Shown: positions 16,064 to 24,467, numbered from the stretch's first letter. The stretch: 38,897 nt of DNA from an uncultured bacterium (GCA_902796515.1 CADBOZ010000134.1:1-38897); one strand, 5' to 3'. A program made the numbers and translations. The notes: a model not told the origin generated them from the letters alone.

Positions 16064-17284
16064 ATGAATAATGCTATCAAAAACTTTAATATATTTTTTG
16101 AAGAAAACGATTTAATGCCGGATGAAACATACTCCCATGTGCTTGTTAAATCGTTGGCAAGAAGTATACTTGAGCCGATTGCATCCGAAAATTCCAATTC
16201 CGTAATCCTTTATCATTTTAAAGATATTCCCGAAACAAACAGCCTGATAAAACGTCTTGAATATTCTCAAAATATTATTTTAAAAGAGTATACAGACTTT
16301 GAATTTTCAAAATATGATGTGGAAGAAACCGGTTTTATAGTACTTTCATCAAGCAGATATAATTGTGCCTTTATTTTTAAAGAAGTGTCCGAAGGTGAAT
16401 ATAAAATATATCTTAAATTGAATTCAAAGCTTGTTAACAAGGTTTACGAAACGATAAAATCAACATTCCATGATAATTTTGATGAAGAATATTATAAATA
16501 CAGACCCGAAAGAAGGGAAAACCTTTTAATGAACAGGGCGGTTGAAAATCTTCTTCGGGATTTTAAAGAAATTATTAAAGAGAATGAATGTAATTTAAAA
16601 TTGCAGGAAAATTATAAGTCTGTGAATGTTGCCAATACTACATTCAGAAATGAAATATATCAAAATGTGCGCCAGATAGCACATGAAATAAAAAATCAAA
16701 TCAGCATTCTGGATATTTACATAAGGATTTTTGAAAAAAAATCGAAAGATACAGAAATTGTTGAACCTTTAAAGAAATCGCTATCGTTGATTAAAAGCCA
16801 GATTGAGCAGTTTAAAAATATTGATGTAATTAACCTGCAGGAACAAAATATTAAAGAATTGGTTAAAGAATCAATTAAAACTTATTCCGAATTATTAAAA
16901 GAAAAGAACAACAAGCTGATTTTGATTGACGAGATGCCCGAAAGTGAAGCAAAATCATTTGCTGACAGGGAAAAATTCTTAATTGTATTAAACAATATAA
17001 TAAAAAATGCACATGATTCGACATCAAATGACGAAATAACAATAAAACTTTCAAAATGTGATTCAAAAATAAAAATTTCTTTTATTAATCACGGAGAAGA
17101 AATTAAAAAAGAGAGCCAATCAAAAATATTTGAACAAGGTTATACAACAAAAAAAGACGGATGGGGAGTCGGGCTTTCCGTTTGTAAGAAATATATAGGC
17201 TCTCAATTCGGAACTTTTGAATTGGAAAAAAGTGACAGGGATGAAACAATTTTCACGATATTAATACCGCTTATAGAAGCGTAA
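16064..17284 (+). CDS. Soluble sensor histidine kinase
   Basis: Residues 1-150 form a sensor region with no membrane span, signal peptide or recognisable PAS signature. The dimerisation/phosphoacceptor helix contains H207 in VRQIAHEIKNQ. The ATPase domain shows an N box (NNIIKNAHDS) and a G box (KDGWGVGLSVCKKYIG). A kinase with no transmembrane segment next to flgB-flgC-fliE recalls FlgS of the epsilonproteobacteria, a cytoplasmic kinase that reads flagellar export assembly, but that is an analogy. Its FlgR partner there is a sigma54 activator, whereas the nearby regulator here is NarL-type. flgB starts 24 bp downstream, so the kinase is probably co-transcribed with the rod genes. Confidence 0.9.
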   Translation: MNNAIKNFNIFFEENDLMPDETYSHVLVKSLARSILEPIASENSNSVILYHFKDIPETNSLIKRLEYSQNIILKEYTDFEFSKYDVEETGFIVLSSSRYNCAFIFKEVSEGEYKIYLKLNSKLVNKVYETIKSTFHDNFDEEYYKYRPERRENLLMNRAVENLLRDFKEIIKENECNLKLQENYKSVNVANTTFRNEIYQNVRQIAHEIKNQISILDIYIRIFEKKSKDTEIVEPLKKSLSLIKSQIEQFKNIDVINLQEQNIKELVKESIKTYSELLKEKNNKLILIDEMPESEAKSFADREKFLIVLNNIIKNAHDSTSNDEITIKLSKCDSKIKISFINHGEEIKKESQSKIFEQGYTTKKDGWGVGLSVCKKYIGSQFGTFELEKSDRDETIFTILIPLIEA

Positions 17285-17308
17285 AATAAACTTTATAAGG
17301 ATAGAATT

Positions 17309-17776
17309 ATGGATTTTATTGAAAACAGAACACGAAGTATCGGTGCTATGGCGCTGGACGGTCTTTACGAAAGAACAAAAGCAATTTCGGCAAACACTGC
17401 CAATGCTCTGACACCAGGTTATCAAAGAAGAACAGTGTCTTTTGAAAGCAGCCTCAGAAACATAATAAACAGGGAAAACGAAAAAGAAGAAATTAAGCTT
17501 CAAAATGCAAGGGAATATGAAAAAAATCCCGAACGTGTTTTGCACGGGAAAACTCCCGCAGAGCTTGCTTTTTTGGCAATGGAAACGGATGCGGATTATA
17601 CAATTGATGTTGAAACCGATATGACGGATGCTATTGATGAAAACGGAAATAATGTGAATATTGAAGAGGAAATGATGGATGAAGCAAAGACAGGCATCCA
17701 ATATCAAGTAATTGCAAACCTGCTATCTAAATCATATTCCCAGCTTTCGTCGGTTATTAGGGGCGATAATCAATAA
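17309..17776 (+). CDS. flgB: Flagellar proximal rod protein FlgB
   Basis: FlgB is part of the flagellar basal-body rod. The family N-terminus is seen as ALDGLYERTKAISANTANAL followed by TPGYQRR (the usual form is NIANADTPGYK), and the C-terminal helix is KTGIQYQVIANLLSKSYSQL. At 155 aa it is slightly longer than typical. The middle section is acidic and looks unstructured. AAGGA lies 7 nt before the ATG. It opens a three-gene rod cluster with flgC and fliE. Confidence 0.9.
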   Translation: MDFIENRTRSIGAMALDGLYERTKAISANTANALTPGYQRRTVSFESSLRNIINRENEKEEIKLQNAREYEKNPERVLHGKTPAELAFLAMETDADYTIDVETDMTDAIDENGNNVNIEEEMMDEAKTGIQYQVIANLLSKSYSQLSSVIRGDNQ

Positions 17777-17791
17777 TAGAGGAGAATTAGT

Positions 17792-18283
17792 ATGACATTT
17801 GGAATTTTTGATATAGCAGCTTCGGGAATGAGAGCTCAAAGAATAGCAATGGATACTGTTTCGTCCAATATTGCTAATGTAAATACAACAAGGGATGAAT
17901 ACGGAAATAAAAACGTATTTCATAAAAAACAGGTTAATTTTAAAGAAATGGCGCTAAAAAAGGGCTTCGGCTTTCCGAAAGGAAATGTAAGCGTTGAATT
18001 CGACCCGCCGGATGAACCGTATCTTGTCGGGGGAGTAACGATAGGCGACAATGCTATTCCGAAAGGGGTAATGGTTGATTCTATTTCGGATTCCATTAAC
18101 CCCACAAGAATTGTGTATGACCCAAATCACCCTGATGCCGATAAAGACGGATATGTAGAGCTTCCGAACGTAAATGTTGTTGAAGAAATGGTTAATATGG
18201 TTAATGCATCAAGAGCATACGAAGCCAATGTTACGATTGCGCAGACTTCAAAATCTATGATACAGAGTGCCATAAACATATAA
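17792..18283 (+). CDS. flgC: Flagellar proximal rod protein FlgC
   Basis: This is the second rod subunit. The N-terminal rod signature reads FDIAASGMRAQRIAMDTVSS then NIANVNTT, and the C-terminal signature is VNVVEEMVNMVNASRAYEAN. At 163 aa it is of normal length for FlgC. It starts 15 bp after flgB with a strong GGAG site. Confidence 0.94.
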   Translation: MTFGIFDIAASGMRAQRIAMDTVSSNIANVNTTRDEYGNKNVFHKKQVNFKEMALKKGFGFPKGNVSVEFDPPDEPYLVGGVTIGDNAIPKGVMVDSISDSINPTRIVYDPNHPDADKDGYVELPNVNVVEEMVNMVNASRAYEANVTIAQTSKSMIQSAINI

Positions 18284-18295
18284 AAAGGATAGAAT

Positions 18296-18745
18296 ATGAA
18301 TAATGATTTTCTGGTAAGCACAAATTTTCAAACTAAACAATTTAATAATTCAATTGAAGGGTTTAACAAAGAATTTAATAAAAACTTTAAAAACTCGGTT
18401 GCAAAAACAAATGACGCAAGCGAGTTTGAAAAAATATTTAATTCAATGGGGCAAAAACCTCTAACTGCCGAAATTTCATTAGACAGCGGCAAGGAAAGGA
18501 AGATGTCTGCCGTAGAAAAAACAGTTAATGACATCGGAAGGGGCTTTTCTAACAGCTTAAACGATTTGAATAACATGCAGAGGCAAGCTGAAGCGGATTT
18601 TGAAACATTTGCGTCAGGCGGCGATATAAGTGTTCATGATGTGATGATATCCGCTCAAAAATCCAATCTTTCAATGCAGATGGCAATTCAATTAAGAAAC
18701 AGATTTATAAATGCATACAACGAACTAAAATCCATGAGCATATAA
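18296..18745 (+). CDS. fliE: Flagellar hook-basal body protein FliE
   Basis: FliE links the MS ring to the proximal rod. The diagnostic C-terminal half (about residues 75-149) contains FSNSLNDLNNMQRQAEADFE, SVHDVMISAQKSNLSMQMAI and RNRFINAYNELKSM. The protein is 149 aa against about 105 for the typical protein, because residues 1-60 are an extra asparagine- and phenylalanine-rich extension. It starts 12 bp after flgC. The cluster ends here: no fliF, fliG or export gene follows. Confidence 0.92.
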   Translation: MNNDFLVSTNFQTKQFNNSIEGFNKEFNKNFKNSVAKTNDASEFEKIFNSMGQKPLTAEISLDSGKERKMSAVEKTVNDIGRGFSNSLNDLNNMQRQAEADFETFASGGDISVHDVMISAQKSNLSMQMAIQLRNRFINAYNELKSMSI

Positions 18746-18784
18746 AAAGCGAAGCCGGTGCGTAAACCAAATCGATGAGATTTG
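18746..18784. repeat. Intergenic repeat, copy 1 (head plus hairpin)
   Basis: A 39-bp unit starting AAAGCGAAGCCGGTGCGTAA and ending in the hairpin CAAATC-GATGA-GATTTG is repeated at 18918 with one mismatch. It begins immediately after the fliE stop codon. Confidence 0.8.
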
Positions 18785-18818
18785 GTTGAAGCAGTCGATG
18801 ACCGCCGTTTCAAATCGG

Positions 18819-18859
18819 CAAATCGATGAGATTTGACGATAGCACTACGATAGCGACGT
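18819..18859. repeat. Intergenic repeat, partial copy (hairpin plus tail)
   Basis: The hairpin CAAATC-GATGA-GATTTG, then 6 bp, then GCACTACGATAGCGACGT. The same hairpin-6 bp-tail arrangement recurs at 18940-18980 with compensated C/T and A/G changes. Confidence 0.7.
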
Positions 18860-18917
18860 AGGATAATCGAGGCTGTTGAGCGACATAGCGAAACAAAGCC
18901 GAGATACCCACAGGAGC

Positions 18918-18980
18918 AAAGCGAAGCCGGTGCGTAAACCAAATCGACGAGATTTGTTGTGTGCACTACGACAACGATGT
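18918..18980. repeat. Intergenic repeat, full copy (head, hairpin, tail)
   Basis: A 63-bp unit with the head AAAGCGAAGCCGGTGC, the hairpin CAAATC-GACGA-GATTTG and the tail GCACTACGACAACGATGT. The region 18746-18980 is visibly richer in G+C than its surroundings and separates the convergent fliE and TonB-like genes. An open frame on the minus strand here (18688-18987) is made of repeat sequence and is not a gene. Confidence 0.8.
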
Positions 18981-19003: not shown

Positions 19004-20098
19004 TTAATTCAACGATATTTCAAAATTGCCGTTATAGAACTTTATGGTCAATTGCATAGCTTCACCTTTGTAACTTTCAGGCGGAGCATTAAATGCGGGT
19101 ACTTGCATGACGGCTTTATAAACGGCATCGTTTAATGTTGAATTTGTTGACTGTTTTACAAATTTTCTTTCGATAAGTTTCCCGTTGCTTGCAATTTTAA
19201 ATGAAAGTGCACAGCTGCCATCGCCTATAACATCGGCAAAATCTATGGCATGACCTATTTTATTTCTGAGAGAATTTTTATAGTTTGCAAGTGTTTGAGA
19301 AGAAGCCGCCGTTGCAGGTTTTTGTACAGTTGCCGGTTGTGTTTTTGCTGTTTGAACAGGTTGTGCCGGTTGAATTTGTTGTGTTTGCTGCCAAACAGGT
19401 ACTTGAATATTATTCGTTGTTTTGTTATTTGTCGGACTGTTTTGAGTCTGAGTTTTTGGCTGCGGCTGGGCTTTTGGGGTATTCTGTTGTTTAACAGGTT
19501 GACTAACGGGTTGTTTAACAGGTTGTTTTACGGGTTGTGCGGTTTGCTTTTGAGTTTTTGCATTTTGTATCGGTTGGCTAACCTGTTGTTTTGAATTTTG
19601 TTTTATTGGTTGTTTTGTCGGATTAACGATTTTTTCCGGTTTTTTTAGGGGCTCAAATTTTAAAGGAACTACTGTTGTTTTTGGCTGCTGTTCTGCCGGT
19701 TGTTGTATTATCGGCGGGTTATCTTCCTTTTTTTCAACTTTAGGCAACTCATTATTCCAGAAGCTATCAAGAGAAGGTATATTTGTATTTACGGCTTCCG
19801 TTTTTTTCGGCGTTTCGTTTTTTTGTTCATATTTTGGATTAATAAAGAAAACTATAATAATTGATAAAAACAGGCAAATTCCAAAAATAATATAAGAAAG
19901 TATATCTTCAGGCTTTTTTTCTTCTTTTACTATTGTAAAATCCTGTTTTTCTTCATATTTAATATTGTTTTCAGGTTCAGGCGCTGCTTCAGGCTTTTGG
20001 TTTTCTGTTTTAATTTCTTCAAAAGTATCACTTCCGCAGTCATCACAATAGTATGGCTTTGTTTCATATTCTTTGCTGCATTCGGTACATCTGTACAT
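19004..20098 (-). CDS. Zinc-ribbon, membrane-anchored TonB-like protein
   Basis: Domain order: a C4 zinc ribbon (C4-xx-C7 and C18-xx-C21), an acidic spacer, one membrane span (about residues 66-86, IIFGICLFLSIIIVFF), a long proline-, glutamine-, lysine- and threonine-rich linker (about 95-270, with repeated PVKQPV units), and a C-terminal domain of about 90 aa resembling TonB/TolA C-termini (GSCALSFKIASNGKLIERKF ... YKAVMQVPAFNAPPESYKGE). The zinc ribbon would lie in the cytoplasm and the linker would span the periplasm. Typical TonB has no zinc ribbon, so the architecture is unusual. It is the last gene of the six-frame operon starting at 24467 and follows the previous gene by 11 bp. Confidence 0.85.
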   Translation of the reverse strand: MYRCTECSKEYETKPYYCDDCGSDTFEEIKTENQKPEAAPEPENNIKYEEKQDFTIVKEEKKPEDILSYIIFGICLFLSIIIVFFINPKYEQKNETPKKTEAVNTNIPSLDSFWNNELPKVEKKEDNPPIIQQPAEQQPKTTVVPLKFEPLKKPEKIVNPTKQPIKQNSKQQVSQPIQNAKTQKQTAQPVKQPVKQPVSQPVKQQNTPKAQPQPKTQTQNSPTNNKTTNNIQVPVWQQTQQIQPAQPVQTAKTQPATVQKPATAASSQTLANYKNSLRNKIGHAIDFADVIGDGSCALSFKIASNGKLIERKFVKQSTNSTLNDAVYKAVMQVPAFNAPPESYKGEAMQLTIKFYNGNFEISLN

Positions 20099-20109
20099 TT
20101 AACTGTATC

Positions 20110-20553
20110 CTATTTGTTAATTATTTCGGTGTCGTTGTAGTCTTTAGGTGTAGAATATTTCGTGTTTGAAGATATTTTCCACGCGCCTTTGACTGTTGTT
20201 GTTAGTCTGTTTGTGCCGTTCGGGAAATTTAAAATATGCTTTCCCTGATAGCTTCTTATAACGGGTGCTATATGTTGTATTGCATAAGGTGTATATTGTT
20301 TTGTGTCGGAATAAGTTTGAATATTTGAAATTTTGCCGTACTTATCAACATCAAAGCTAAATCTGAATATTGTTCCGTTCGGAACAACGGGAAGGGAAGT
20401 GTCTTTCATGATTTGATTTTGAAGATTGGATCTCCAAACATTCCAGAGAACTTCTTCCTGCTCATGTGTAATTGTTGTAACGGTTTTTGGTTCGGGCTTT
20501 TGAACTTCAACTGTTTTTTGAACAACTTTATTTTCGGTCTGCTGTTTTGGCAT
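20110..20553 (-). pseudogene. C-terminal part of a TonB-like protein, after an in-frame TAG
   Basis: This 147-residue frame continues, in the same reading frame, the gene that ends with TAG at 20557-20559: the codons are AAA-TAG-GCT-ATG. It starts with linker-type sequence (KPEPKTVTTITHE), then has a TonB/TolA-like C-terminal domain (WNVWRSNLQNQIMKD ... GTIFRFSFDVDKYGKISNIQ). On its own it has no membrane anchor, no signal peptide and no Shine-Dalgarno sequence before its ATG. Either the gene is broken by a nonsense mutation, or the stop is a sequencing error, or the two halves are joined by readthrough or made by re-initiation. The intact product would be about 280 aa. Confidence 0.7.
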
Positions 20554-20556
20554 AGC

Positions 20557-20952
20557 CTATTTTGTTTCGGTTTGAACGGCGGTTTGCTTAGGAGTTTCCT
20601 TTTTAACTTCTTTTTTTACGGTTTCGGGTTTTGGCTGTTCTTTTAAAATCGCAACTTTATCGGTTTTATTTTTAACCTGCTTGGTTTCAACCGTTTTTTT
20701 GGTAACAGGTTTTTGTATAACTTCGTTTTTGATATTTTCTTGCAATTTTTGTTGTGAAGATTTTGTATATTCAACGGTTGTTATTGTCGGAATATTTTTT
20801 TCCTCTTTTATTTCCGGAGCATCATTTACGATTGTATAATCGGAATTATAGATAAATGCAGCCTTATGCATTTTGGGTTTTTGAACCGAAACAAATAAGG
20901 TTGCAGCTATCAAAGTTATTATAATAATTAAAAAAATATTTTTATAATTCAT
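20557..20952 (-). pseudogene. N-terminal part of the TonB-like protein, ending at an in-frame TAG
   Basis: 131 residues: a membrane anchor (about residues 5-23, NIFLIIIITLIAATLFVSV), a short periplasmic segment and a lysine-, proline- and valine-rich linker (about 60-131, for example KPETVKKEVKKETPKQ) typical of TonB-like arms. The linker is cut by TAG and resumes in the same frame two codons later (20553). If functional as is, the product would be an anchored linker with no C-terminal domain. It lies 11 bp after the eight-span membrane protein gene. Confidence 0.7.
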
Positions 20953-20963
20953 TTACTTTTTCA

Positions 20964-22562
20964 TTAATCTTTATCTATTTTATCCGTCAATTCTTCAATT
21001 GCAAAGGTTTCAAATTGAGTTTGACTTAACATAAACGTTTCCGCTATAAGTAATGCTGTCGGTACAAGCGCAGCTATTGCACTTAAAAGCATTCCGGAAA
21101 GGTCGCCGCCCATTTCCTGCATAAAGAAGGAGGCATTCATTGAAAATTCAATAATAACAATAACTATACCTATGCAATAGTATCTTCTCATTTCTTTATC
21201 AAGCTTTTTAATGCCTTCAAGTCCGTATATTTCAACGCCGTGAGCAAGATAATTGCTGAAGCCGTCATTTTTTATAACGTTCGAAGCCTGCATTTTCTTA
21301 TTGGCAAGAAAACCGTTTGCAAAAGAGAAGAAAGCAAAAATTATAAGAAACATTGCAAGAACTAAGAATACCGGAGAAATTCTTAAGCCTGAAATTCTTA
21401 ACCAGCCCGCAGCTTCGGGGAAACACATTGCAAGGGTATTAGATACGCCGTATGCAAGGAATGGAGCTGTTATAATACCGAGAACTATTTCACCCAGCTG
21501 TTTTAATTGAAGCATAAATGCTTTATCCTTAATGTTTCTTACTTTTGTTTTACTTAAATTATTTGCATATATTTCAATCCATTTTTGATATTCTTTTATA
21601 ACGTGTTCAAAATCCGGTCTGTATTCAAACTTGTTTAACTCTTTTCTAAGTTCAATACTGTTATTTTTAAAGTAACCCGTTGCAAGAGCTAACGTCAGAG
21701 CCGTTGCGGTAAAGAAAAGCGAAATCAATATTGCAAAAACGGGCATTGTTTTTGGAGTCGTAAAATATAAAACATTAATTATATAAACGGCAGCATAGAA
21801 TAAACAGGGCAAAATTATCATAAATTTTTCCGCAGTTTTTGATACGGTTGTATCTTCGCCGAGTTTATTCTGGAAATATAAGAATACGCCCTGTTTTAGG
21901 ATTAGACCTATTCCGTATACAATTGCGGAATATACAAATATTAATTTCATATTTGTCGGCATCTGGATAACATTTCCTATATCTTCAGCCGGAAGTCCGG
22001 TTAAATAGTTTGAAACTCCGAATGCACAAACAAGAGATGCGAGGAATAAAGCGATATGAAGCACTATACCTGCTTTAGAATTTATTGAAATTTTATTTTT
22101 AAGCTGGTTAATATCGGCGTAAATGTCTTTAACAATAGCAACTCTGGCGCGTTCAATTTCGGATTTTGCCTGCTCTATTTTCATCTTTGCCTGAGGATTA
22201 ACATTGCTTCCGTATATGGCTTTTATATCGTTTTCATCAATGTTGTTTCCGAGATTTGATGTGTCATATGTCGTTTCAAGGATTTTAATTGTAATAAAGT
22301 CGTCGCTGTTAGCCGAAATCAGCTTACAAACTTTATTTATTTCCATACTTTGAGGAAGTGTTTTCCCTTTGAATAAAAAATTTGTGTTATTAAATTGGTT
22401 TAAAAGATAGCACTTATTTGTGTTTTTATCAAATTGAACCGTTAACATAAAATCAAAATTAACGTTTAATTTGAAATCATATCCGTCGCGGGAGGATATA
22501 TTCACAACTTCTTTATCAAGAAATGTTTTTTCGCCGTCTTTTGAAACTATTGTAAAAGCCAT
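20964..22562 (-). CDS. Eight-span membrane protein with FHA-like N-terminus
   Basis: Residues 1-115 look like a degenerate forkhead-associated (FHA) beta sandwich: alternating hydrophobic strands with SRDGYDFKLN and FNNTNFLFKGKTLPQSMEIN in the positions of the R and N loops, but without a clean GR...SxxH motif. A short coiled coil (about 127-160, KIEQAKSEIERARVAIVKDI) leads to about eight membrane spans near residues 167-188, 205-225, 247-267, 273-296, 355-380, 390-415, 455-475 and 483-505. I know no named family with this layout. Its place between a VWA protein and two TonB-like proteins suggests that it is the inner-membrane core of a complex. The FHA call is tentative; the membrane topology is clear. 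Confidence 0.85.
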   Translation of the reverse strand: MAFTIVSKDGEKTFLDKEVVNISSRDGYDFKLNVNFDFMLTVQFDKNTNKCYLLNQFNNTNFLFKGKTLPQSMEINKVCKLISANSDDFITIKILETTYDTSNLGNNIDENDIKAIYGSNVNPQAKMKIEQAKSEIERARVAIVKDIYADINQLKNKISINSKAGIVLHIALFLASLVCAFGVSNYLTGLPAEDIGNVIQMPTNMKLIFVYSAIVYGIGLILKQGVFLYFQNKLGEDTTVSKTAEKFMIILPCLFYAAVYIINVLYFTTPKTMPVFAILISLFFTATALTLALATGYFKNNSIELRKELNKFEYRPDFEHVIKEYQKWIEIYANNLSKTKVRNIKDKAFMLQLKQLGEIVLGIITAPFLAYGVSNTLAMCFPEAAGWLRISGLRISPVFLVLAMFLIIFAFFSFANGFLANKKMQASNVIKNDGFSNYLAHGVEIYGLEGIKKLDKEMRRYYCIGIVIVIIEFSMNASFFMQEMGGDLSGMLLSAIAALVPTALLIAETFMLSQTQFETFAIEELTDKIDKD

Positions 22563-22577
22563 ATTTTAACTTTGCTC

Positions 22578-23246
22578 CTATCGTCCTATTGCTTCTAAAA
22601 ATCTTCTGTTTGCTTTATTTACGTTTTCTTTATTTGCAACAATTAATTTCTTTTCACCCAAAACCGGATTAAGTTTTGATTTAACAAGGTCTAATTTTTC
22701 AGGATGCGCATATACGAACATCATGGCTAAATCAGGCGCATATTCCTGAACTTTTTTAACGTTATCGGGCAATGTATCCCAGTTTATTTGTTTTTCAATG
22801 CTTCCTTCGTTTTCAAGGTCGCCTATTACAACAATTGAGGGTACATATCCTTCTTTTTTCATTGTTAAAACGTGCTCGAAAGCTTTTTTGAGTGCTTCGC
22901 CGTATGCGGTACCGTAATCTTTTTCATCAAATTTCGTAAATTCATTAACCGCGGACATTATTCCCGTTGAATCGGCGGGAGTTCCTTCGTAGATTAAATA
23001 CGATTTTTGAGAAACTTTTAATATTTTAACGGCATCTTCGGGGTCTAATATTGCGCATAAAGATTTTATGTATTTTATTTCTTCGGGAAGCATTTTTTGA
23101 TTTGATGCCGAAGAATCCACAACGAAAATTATTGCGGATTTATGAAAATCATCAACTTTTATATTTTTTATCCCGACAAAAAGCAATTTTCCTATAATTG
23201 AAATTGCAAGTATTAAAATCCCCGTTATAATAAGTCTTTTATTCAT
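22578..23246 (-). CDS. Membrane-anchored von Willebrand A (VWA) domain protein
   Basis: One N-terminal span (about residues 5-26) is followed by a VWA domain with a complete metal-ion-dependent adhesion site: DxSxS (D44, S46, S48 in VVDSSASN), T113 in YGTAYGEAL and D143 in VVIGDLENEG. VWA domains with an intact MIDAS bind partner proteins through Mg2+ and often act as assembly factors beside ATPases or secretion systems. At 222 aa it is a minimal anchor-plus-VWA protein; the domain most likely faces the periplasm. It is 7 bp downstream of the VirB10-like gene and 15 bp upstream of the eight-span gene. Confidence 0.85.
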   Translation of the reverse strand: MNKRLIITGILILAISIIGKLLFVGIKNIKVDDFHKSAIIFVVDSSASNQKMLPEEIKYIKSLCAILDPEDAVKILKVSQKSYLIYEGTPADSTGIMSAVNEFTKFDEKDYGTAYGEALKKAFEHVLTMKKEGYVPSIVVIGDLENEGSIEKQINWDTLPDNVKKVQEYAPDLAMMFVYAHPEKLDLVKSKLNPVLGEKKLIVANKENVNKANRRFLEAIGR

Positions 23247-23253
23247 GTTTATC

Positions 23254-24279
23254 CTATTCGCTCAATGTAACTCTTAATGTCTTTGATAATTCGATTTCAA
23301 GTTCCGTATATGACGGAATTTCGGCATCAACACCTTTTTCAATTGTCGAACCTGCAAGACTTCCGCCTGCACCAACCGCAGTTCCTATTGCAACCGCTCT
23401 TCCCAAGTTATCTCCGCCTGATAAAGCGCCGACAATCAGTCCTCCCAGTGCGCCGATTATTGCTCCGGTCGCAACATTTTTAACTGTTGAAACAACTTTA
23501 CCGTCGTTTTCAACCGAAAAATCAACCTTTTCTGTTGATATATTTAATATTTTGCCTTCCGGAGTAACTAATTTATCAAAATTAATAACTACTCTGCCGT
23601 TCCTTGAAGCGTATTGTGCCGGATGTGCAAGAATTAAGTTGCCGTACAGAACACTTCCCTGCGGAGCCACAACGGAACCGTTATATGTCCAGTTGTCAGA
23701 TAAAATTGCTATAATTTCATCCCCCACAGATGCCGTTGAAGTGTTGATTGCATTTTGTAAGTATGTTGAAAACTTTGTTCCTTTCGGAATTTGAGCAACA
23801 TATCCTCTTAAAGTATTGTCGTTTGCGGTTTTAGTTGTACTTTTAGTTGAAGAAGACTTGCTGTTTTCTTCAAAATTGTAAACCGTTTTTTTGGCAGGAT
23901 TTATAACTTCATCTGCAAGTTTATCATATATACCTATAATTCTTGAATCTTCGGATTGTTCAAGCGTTATATCGGCAGATTTTATCTGTTTCAGGATATA
24001 TTTGTTGATTGCCTTATTATTGTTTGATTGATAATAATAGAACATATTCTGACCGCTTTGTTGTAAAATAACAACCGCATAATCCTCAGCGTTCTTGTTG
24101 CTTATTCCGTAATAAGGATTTTCCTTTGTTAAAGTAAAATTCTTTGTGTCATAAGCATTTTTAACCTTAGGCATTATTTCGGAAACATTTACACCTTTAA
24201 GGTAGTATAATTCGCTAAAAGCAAGGGCTGAAGAACAGCTATAAAGTAATAATATTAATGCAGACAGTAATTTTTTCAT
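23254..24279 (-). CDS. Secreted VirB10/TrbI-like protein with glycine zipper
   Basis: A signal peptide covers residues 1-20 (cleavage after ALA likely; LYSC at 12-15 is a poor lipobox). Residues 21-130 are a separate N-terminal domain. After a serine/threonine linker (140-155), residues 157-255 resemble the VirB10/TrbI C-terminal barrel: RGYVAQIPKGTKFSTYLQNA, then VGDEIIAILSDN, then VVAPQGSVLYGN, then a strand with VVINFDKLVTPEGK. In type IV secretion this fold lines the outer-membrane channel. Residues 271-310 are a glycine zipper (GAIIGALGGLIVGALSGGDN), common in outer-membrane or pore-associated proteins. It overlaps the upstream small gene by 4 nt. No other T4SS gene is present, so a channel or structural role is inference. 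Confidence 0.8.
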   Translation of the reverse strand: MKKLLSALILLLYSCSSALAFSELYYLKGVNVSEIMPKVKNAYDTKNFTLTKENPYYGISNKNAEDYAVVILQQSGQNMFYYYQSNNNKAINKYILKQIKSADITLEQSEDSRIIGIYDKLADEVINPAKKTVYNFEENSKSSSTKSTTKTANDNTLRGYVAQIPKGTKFSTYLQNAINTSTASVGDEIIAILSDNWTYNGSVVAPQGSVLYGNLILAHPAQYASRNGRVVINFDKLVTPEGKILNISTEKVDFSVENDGKVVSTVKNVATGAIIGALGGLIVGALSGGDNLGRAVAIGTAVGAGGSLAGSTIEKGVDAEIPSYTELEIELSKTLRVTLSE

Positions 24280-24467
24280 TTTCTTTCTTTCATAAATTGA
24301 GTATATGTCGTTTGCTTTGTTGTAGTTACAGAGCCGTCATCATTGATTTTTACAAGATATTCTATTGTATTGATTGAAAAAGGCTTATGAAGCACAGGTC
24401 TTTTAATCAGTATAAAGCCTGTAAAAACAATAACCACAATAAGAATTACAGATAAACTTGTTTTCAT
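24276..24467 (-). CDS. Small single-span membrane protein, first gene of the operon
   Basis: 63 residues with one membrane span (about 5-22, LSVILIVVIVFTGFILI) followed by a short exported domain (INTIEYLVKINDDGSVTTTK). No family is recognised. It is accepted as real because AAAGGATG lies at the right distance from the ATG, the stop overlaps the next start by 4 nt (ATGA), and a TATAAT -10 box stands just upstream. Confidence 0.7.
   Translation of the reverse strand: MKTSLSVILIVVIVFTGFILIKRPVLHKPFSINTIEYLVKINDDGSVTTTKQTTYTQFMKERK

Follow-up and report, generated by a model that had tools for sequence, protein, structure and literature searches.

A conserved operon of Gastranaerophilales predicted to span the cell envelope with VirB10-type, VWA, FHA-like and TonB-like parts

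VirB10 is known to form an outer-membrane pore in type IV secretion systems (T4SS), one of the described envelope machines with which the locus studied here has to be compared. Another is the Agl-Glt system of Myxococcus, in which GltG joins an FHA domain, a transmembrane segment and a TonB domain, GltJ provides a TonB-like arm, AglRQS comprises one TolQ-like and two TolR-like proteins, and CglB is a VWA surface protein (PMC3169522, PMC5349195, PMC13104615). In this study, we investigated an operon at positions 19004 to 24467 of a 38,897-nucleotide contig (CADBOZ010000134.1) from an uncultured bacterium; the whole contig is called the window, and the genome to which it belongs (1.85 Mb, 150 contigs) is denoted G000. 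It is placed with the Gastranaerophilales, common bacteria of gut and rumen that for the most part are uncultured and that are non-photosynthetic relatives of Cyanobacteria. We observed that the operon is real, conserved and lineage-specific, and that no named system matches it. Its parts are predicted to reach from the cytoplasm to the outer membrane and are co-conserved as a unit, in line with the trans-envelope reading of a first-pass annotation made from the sequence alone. With somewhat less than even confidence, we favour the view that the operon products and a separately encoded, exported VWA protein form one trans-envelope machine of the TonB/Tol kind, similar to Agl-Glt, which at the outer membrane displays or moves that VWA protein. 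The features of the locus are as follows.

24276..24467, minus strand: g1, a 63-residue membrane anchor whose short periplasmic tail reads PxxHKPFSxNTIEYL
23254..24279, minus strand: g2, 341 residues, exported, with a signal peptide, an N-terminal alpha/beta domain (19-113) and a VirB10/TrbI C-terminal fold (160-341)
22578..23246, minus strand: g3, 222 residues, with an N-terminal anchor and a VWA domain with a metal ion-dependent adhesion site (MIDAS), predicted periplasmic
20964..22562, minus strand: g4, 532 residues, with a degenerate cytoplasmic FHA domain (1-96), a coiled coil and an eight-span membrane domain; proposed core
20110..20952, minus strand: g5, with an anchor, a Pro/Lys linker and a TonB/TolA-like C-terminal domain, and an in-frame TAG inside
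20557-20559, minus strand: the in-frame TAG of g5, absent from the relatives read
19004..20098, minus strand: g6, 364 residues, with a cytoplasmic Cys4 zinc ribbon, one span, a long Pro/Gln linker and a TonB_2 domain

The sole overlap is that of g1 and g2 (4 nt, ATGA), and the remaining gaps measure 7, 15, 11 and 11 nt. The tight packing described by the first-pass annotation is therefore correct in its coordinates, gaps and overlap, but not in treating g5 as one open frame: the TAG cuts g5 into 131 residues (anchor and linker) and 147 residues (TonB-like domain), so that there are strictly seven frames, not six. In the relatives read, including one locus 94% identical in g4 (L031), g5 is a single intact frame, and the TAG is either a strain-private mutation or an assembly error. 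Recoding of this codon was rejected as first choice because g2, g3 and g5 themselves terminate in TAG and the relatives are free of a stop at the site. In keeping with the signal peptides or anchors noted before, g1, g3, g5 and g6 carry membrane anchors and g2 a Sec signal peptide.

A lack of co-conservation in related genomes had been set as a second way to refute the first reading, and it did not occur. In a sample of 30 independent contigs bearing g4 (L031 to L060), the order g1-g2-g3-g4-g5-g6 was found to be kept in about 25 of the 30 Gastranaerophilales loci; of the contigs with enough flanking sequence, nearly all keep it. The flanks of the operon differ between independent contigs, and because the same order occurs on independent contigs with unrelated flanks, the operon is not a product of chance. 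Full-length g4 was detected in 122 of the 192 genomes of the order, 121 of them in one family and a single one (G020, 66% complete) in another, and, weak matches aside, it was not found in the other genomes of the class and phylum that were searched; the suspected lineage specificity is borne out accordingly, with g4 detected solely in one family and the incomplete G020. At that exceptional locus (G020:C152, L134), an operon from g2 to g6 lies at a contig edge with g4 at 66% identity, which may represent either transfer or contamination. A search of the literature on Melainabacteria or Gastranaerophilales in connection with VWA, TonB or secretion systems, which covered titles, abstracts and one searched paper, returned no description of the operon.

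Within the genus of G000 itself, g4 is present in 2 of 12 genomes, and the distribution is therefore patchy. Paralogous operons were also observed, several per genome, and these consist of g3-g4-g5 alone, of g2-g4-g5-g6 or of g3-g4-g5-g6. In one genus, g3-g4 and a g6-like gene stand beside or directly after two Trk-like genes (L100, L101, L103, L104), whose products we read from their sequences as probable TrkA- and TrkH-type potassium uptake proteins. Some genomes have no more than an FHA-like protein standing alone; in one genus (genus g6, not the gene of that name), where it lies near an efflux-pump cluster, this protein has about 99 residues and is homologous to the N-terminal domain of g4 (L098, L099, L105, L106). 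The patchiness and the paralogous operons bear on a Tol-Pal-like role in envelope maintenance, according to which TolA-like arms would both tether and constrict the outer membrane and would have their outer anchors in g2 and the VWA proteins. The single anchors with long linkers agree with such a role, as does a weak match of g6 to the TolA C-terminal family PF06519 (0.026) alongside TonB_2; nevertheless, presence in 2 of 12 genomes of a genus is unusual for a housekeeping function, several paralogous operons per genome also speak against it, and we regard this role as improbable.

The first-pass annotation had not seen a seventh partner, the exported VWA protein, whose intact gene in G000 (G000:C99:1238-2140) lies on a separate contig. 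In several loci this gene adjoins g6 on the opposite strand, and in about a dozen further genomes it is likewise found on another contig. The protein harbors an invariant and complete MIDAS (D78/S80/S82, T187, D217) together with four invariant cysteines. Orthologues were recognised at E <1e-40, a threshold chosen after the scores had been seen so as to fall between the orthologue group and a near-universal background of distant VWA proteins at about 1e-35. As plain genome counts, orthologues occur in 66 genomes, namely 66 of the 122 with full-length g4 and 0 of the 70 without it. A search with the N-terminal domain of g2 gave 56 strong genomes, and the exported VWA protein was present in all of them (56/56); three genomes with a g2 devoid of this domain (L070, L071, L072) have no such orthologue. 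The two co-vary in many genera, and in the genus of G000 both are found only in G000 itself. Several copies of the exported VWA gene are clustered as an array in a genome of genus g11 (G041:C3:229677-233135). Taken together, gene order and co-occurrence strongly suggest that the products form one complex.

The outer part of this proposed complex is most readily recognised in g2. Structure comparison supported a VirB10 C-terminal fold for residues 160-341 (VIA-align Z 13.5 to 6gyb_C, 116 residues, root-mean-square deviation 2.6; Foldseek match to 7o3j_A, E 2e-6), with PF03743 (TrbI) detected in 8 of 22 g2 homologues (E up to 1, best 5.4e-9) and a glycine-zipper family match in 17/22. The glycine-zipper hairpin occupies the position of the VirB10 outer-membrane antenna, in a region modelled at pLDDT <50, and the N-terminal alpha/beta domain gave weak matches, including one to BamC (Z about 7). 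The signal peptide is cleavable, with an AxA-type site in relatives, and no further N-terminal span follows; for this reason g2 is VirB10-like in its C-terminal domain only, and the description of the whole protein as VirB10-like was too broad. The fold, the hairpin at the antenna position and the co-occurring exported partner would also suit a secretion conduit, in which g2 is an outer-membrane pore that lets out the exported VWA protein or some different substrate, and g4 and the arms open it. However, VirB9/CagX was found in none of the family's 170 genomes, with only weak matches below the cut-off in other families; no Pfam match to a VirB4/VirB11/VirD4-type ATPase was obtained among the operon proteins, the rest of the genome not having been searched; and g2 has a cleavable signal peptide but is without an inner-membrane span. 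We consider a conduit unlikely. The VirB10-type domain could also be what is left of a diverged T4SS, yet the lack of VirB9 and of an operon ATPase, and the presence of VWA proteins and an eight-span core foreign to T4SS, have mostly refuted this already and make it extremely improbable.

The core of the machine is proposed to be g4. Its N-terminus was supported by structure comparison as an FHA fold (Z 12.6 to 6ccd, 93 residues, root-mean-square deviation 2.2), so the guess of an FHA-like domain was right as to fold, but the phosphothreonine-binding arginine of the FHA G-R motif was found in 0 of 30 g4 homologues, position 24 being Ser, Thr or Asn. The eight membrane spans noticed at first are supported by hydropathy peaks at 165, 204, 247, 275, 356, 397, 463 and 488, which agree with the helices of the structure model. 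The loop joining spans 5 and 6 harbors an invariant TxAxCFPEAAxWxR motif and a cluster of invariant residues (T376, C380, P382, E383, W387, R389, R394), and the loop after span 4 an invariant patch (E313/R315/D317/E319); E472 and N476, inside the membrane, are invariant as well. No relative of g4 was obtained by sequence in Pfam, NCBIfam or the PDB, and the PDB sequence search gave nothing useful for g2 or g5 either; a fold search with the membrane part returned no informative PDB match, to which little weight is given because the hits were filled by the FHA domain. Kinship with the MotA/TolQ/ExbB motor family was rejected, as hhalign gave a probability of 0.1% against the ExbB and MotA profiles. 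A comparison of the two four-span halves with each other scored 26.9 in hhalign, a value reached by 2 of 120 local shuffles and 0 of 60 block permutations, which is suggestive only of an internal 4+4 duplication.

An envelope sensor-regulator would make different use of these domains, the metal-binding VWA and the FHA domains sensing the periplasm and signalling inward through g4 and the zinc ribbon of g6. The FHA domain and the ribbon are indeed predicted to be cytoplasmic, and a sensor kinase gene lies nearby (16064-17284); on the other hand, the FHA domain is without its phosphothreonine-binding arginine and no regulator is conserved beside the operon, and we judge such a task very unlikely.

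Among the remaining products, g1 is conserved in relatives (27-row alignment), and the N-terminus of g5 is a homologue of its transmembrane and HKP segment (hhalign probability 97, E 1.4e-11), a common anchor module that suggests a shared membrane partner. The VWA domain of g3 matches VWA_2 (PF13519, 1e-6), and its MIDAS, complete as first described (D44/S46/S48, T113, D143), is kept across 19 relatives. The operon at L034 is intact apart from its g3 (L034:8317-8988), whose MIDAS is degenerate and has VIKPSENLQ instead of the DSSAS motif. The zinc ribbon noted in g6 is likewise upheld by Cys4, Cys7, Cys18 and Cys21, invariant in 16 relatives. As regards the two anchored linkers with TonB-like C-terminal domains, that of g6 exceeds the family cut-off for TonB_2 (PF13103, 8.1e-8), and that of g5 resembles the g6 domain in profile comparison (hhalign probability 65, E 5.8e-5, 45 columns), by which weaker route it may be called TonB-like; the claim thus stands for both except that the g5 frame is split in the window.

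For such arms a possible source of energy is present outside the operon. The absence of ExbB/ExbD stated by the first-pass annotation holds for the operon but not for the genome, since G000 carries an ExbB-ExbD-ExbD locus elsewhere (G000:C131), and an ExbB-family gene was detected in 190 of the 192 genomes; this chromosomal motor could drive the arms. TonB-dependent receptors were not found in G000, being absent from 176/192 genomes and present in 16/192, so the target of the arms must be a different one.

In the machine we favour, the inner membrane would hold the eight-span g4 with its FHA domain, and also the anchors that g1 and g5 have in common, while g5 and g6 would extend TonB/TolA-like arms through the periplasm. 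The zinc ribbon of g6 would be the likely control point on the cytoplasmic side, g3 an anchored periplasmic VWA protein, and g2 an outer-membrane ring or collar of VirB10 C-terminal type. The exported VWA protein would dock on g2, probably through the g2 N-domain, and be displayed, anchored or pulled there, with energy probably coming from the chromosomal ExbB-ExbD-ExbD motor or from g4 itself. It would operate as a force-transmission or adhesion machine of the Tol/TonB or Agl-Glt type, not in secretion or receptor import; the task of adhesin display or force transmission we infer from these likenesses.

Several observations weigh against this machine. Paralogous g3-g4-g5 operons exist without g2 and the exported VWA protein, and the outer-membrane part is accordingly not always needed. 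The co-occurrence counts for the exported VWA protein ignore shared ancestry, and the window's own g5 is interrupted. Genomes that lack the operon have the ExbB locus too, which is therefore not specific to it. Taken as a family, g4 occurs more often in genomes without FlhA (100/118) than in FlhA-positive ones (21/52, kinship ignored), but full g2-type systems are not enriched without flagella (40/118, versus 15/52 with flagella, p = 0.6, kinship likewise ignored), and alternative motility in non-flagellated genomes was dropped as an explanation.

The VWA, FHA, TonB C-terminal and VirB10 C-terminal domains all belong to known kinds, and the novelty lies in their combination, the membrane core and the lineage restriction. 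A bolder and rather doubtful proposal, which we put forward tentatively, is that of an undescribed class of trans-envelope machine in one family, whose eight-span FHA core, of an unrecognised protein family, would drive TonB-like arms; by these a VWA adhesin would be moved or displayed on an outer-membrane ring of VirB10 type, serving surface adhesion or gliding-type force without Agl-Glt or T4SS ancestry. Should this be so, a single bacterial family has given rise to a machine in which known domains surround a membrane core not recognised before, a VirB10-type outer part is reused in the absence of VirB9, its usual partner, and TonB-like arms serve where TonB receptors are lacking. Two interactions are predicted by name: the exported VWA protein should contact the g2 N-domain, and the anchor common to g1 and g5 should contact g4.

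Other features of the window and genome were also recorded. The sensor kinase gene (16064-17284) and flagellar flgB, flgC-type and fliE genes adjoin the operon at 16064-18745 and are not kept there in relatives; a flagellar association through flgB/flgC/fliE was rejected for that reason. The intergenic region that follows g6 (18746-18980) contains three copies of a 17-bp repeat, CAAATCTCATCGATTTG, as many as which appeared in 0 of 100 shuffles. A second FHIPEP (flagellar/type III export gate) paralogue of about 700 residues lies near FliH-like and flagellin-like genes (G000:C68:5758-7734, L131), and almost every one of the order's 192 genomes has a counterpart (E about 1e-211 to 1e-221), those without FlhA included. 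PADLOC gave no match for g2, g3, g4, the C-terminal part of g5, g6 or the exported VWA protein, and an anti-phage defence system was dropped on that ground.

Comparison with described systems agrees with the earlier judgement that the locus is neither a T4SS nor classical TonB, as VirB9, an operon ATPase and a VirB10-type anchor are absent and G000 has no receptor. The likeness to T4SS VirB10/TrbI lies in the fold of g2 160-341 (Z 13.5), whereas g2 has no inner-membrane span and adds a glycine-zipper hairpin and an extra N-terminal domain, VirB9 is absent from the family and no ATPase is in the operon; the operon is not a T4SS member. With TonB-ExbB-ExbD and Tol-Pal it shares anchored Pro-rich arms, TonB/TolA-type C-terminal domains and ExbBD in the genome, but it has two arms together with VWA, FHA and VirB10 parts, a motor outside the locus and no TonB-dependent receptor in G000; it is not classical TonB import, and the arms may work like TonB. 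The gliding and focal-adhesion system Agl-Glt of Myxococcus xanthus likewise combines FHA, TonB C-terminal arms on single-span proteins and a VWA protein, a motor of one TolQ and two TolR types is available in the G000 genome, and g6 resembles GltJ as a second single-span arm with a Cys4 ribbon and TonB_2. In contrast, GltG carries FHA and TonB on one single-span protein, while here FHA is on the eight-span g4 and the TonB domains are on g5 and g6, the outer part is of VirB10 type, the motor is outside the locus, and there are two VWA proteins. No Glt beta-barrel (GltA/B) or tetratricopeptide-repeat gene was found in the operon, barrels not having been searched in the rest of the genome. Although the arrangements that define it differ from those seen here, Agl-Glt is, by its parts list, the closest precedent for this operon.

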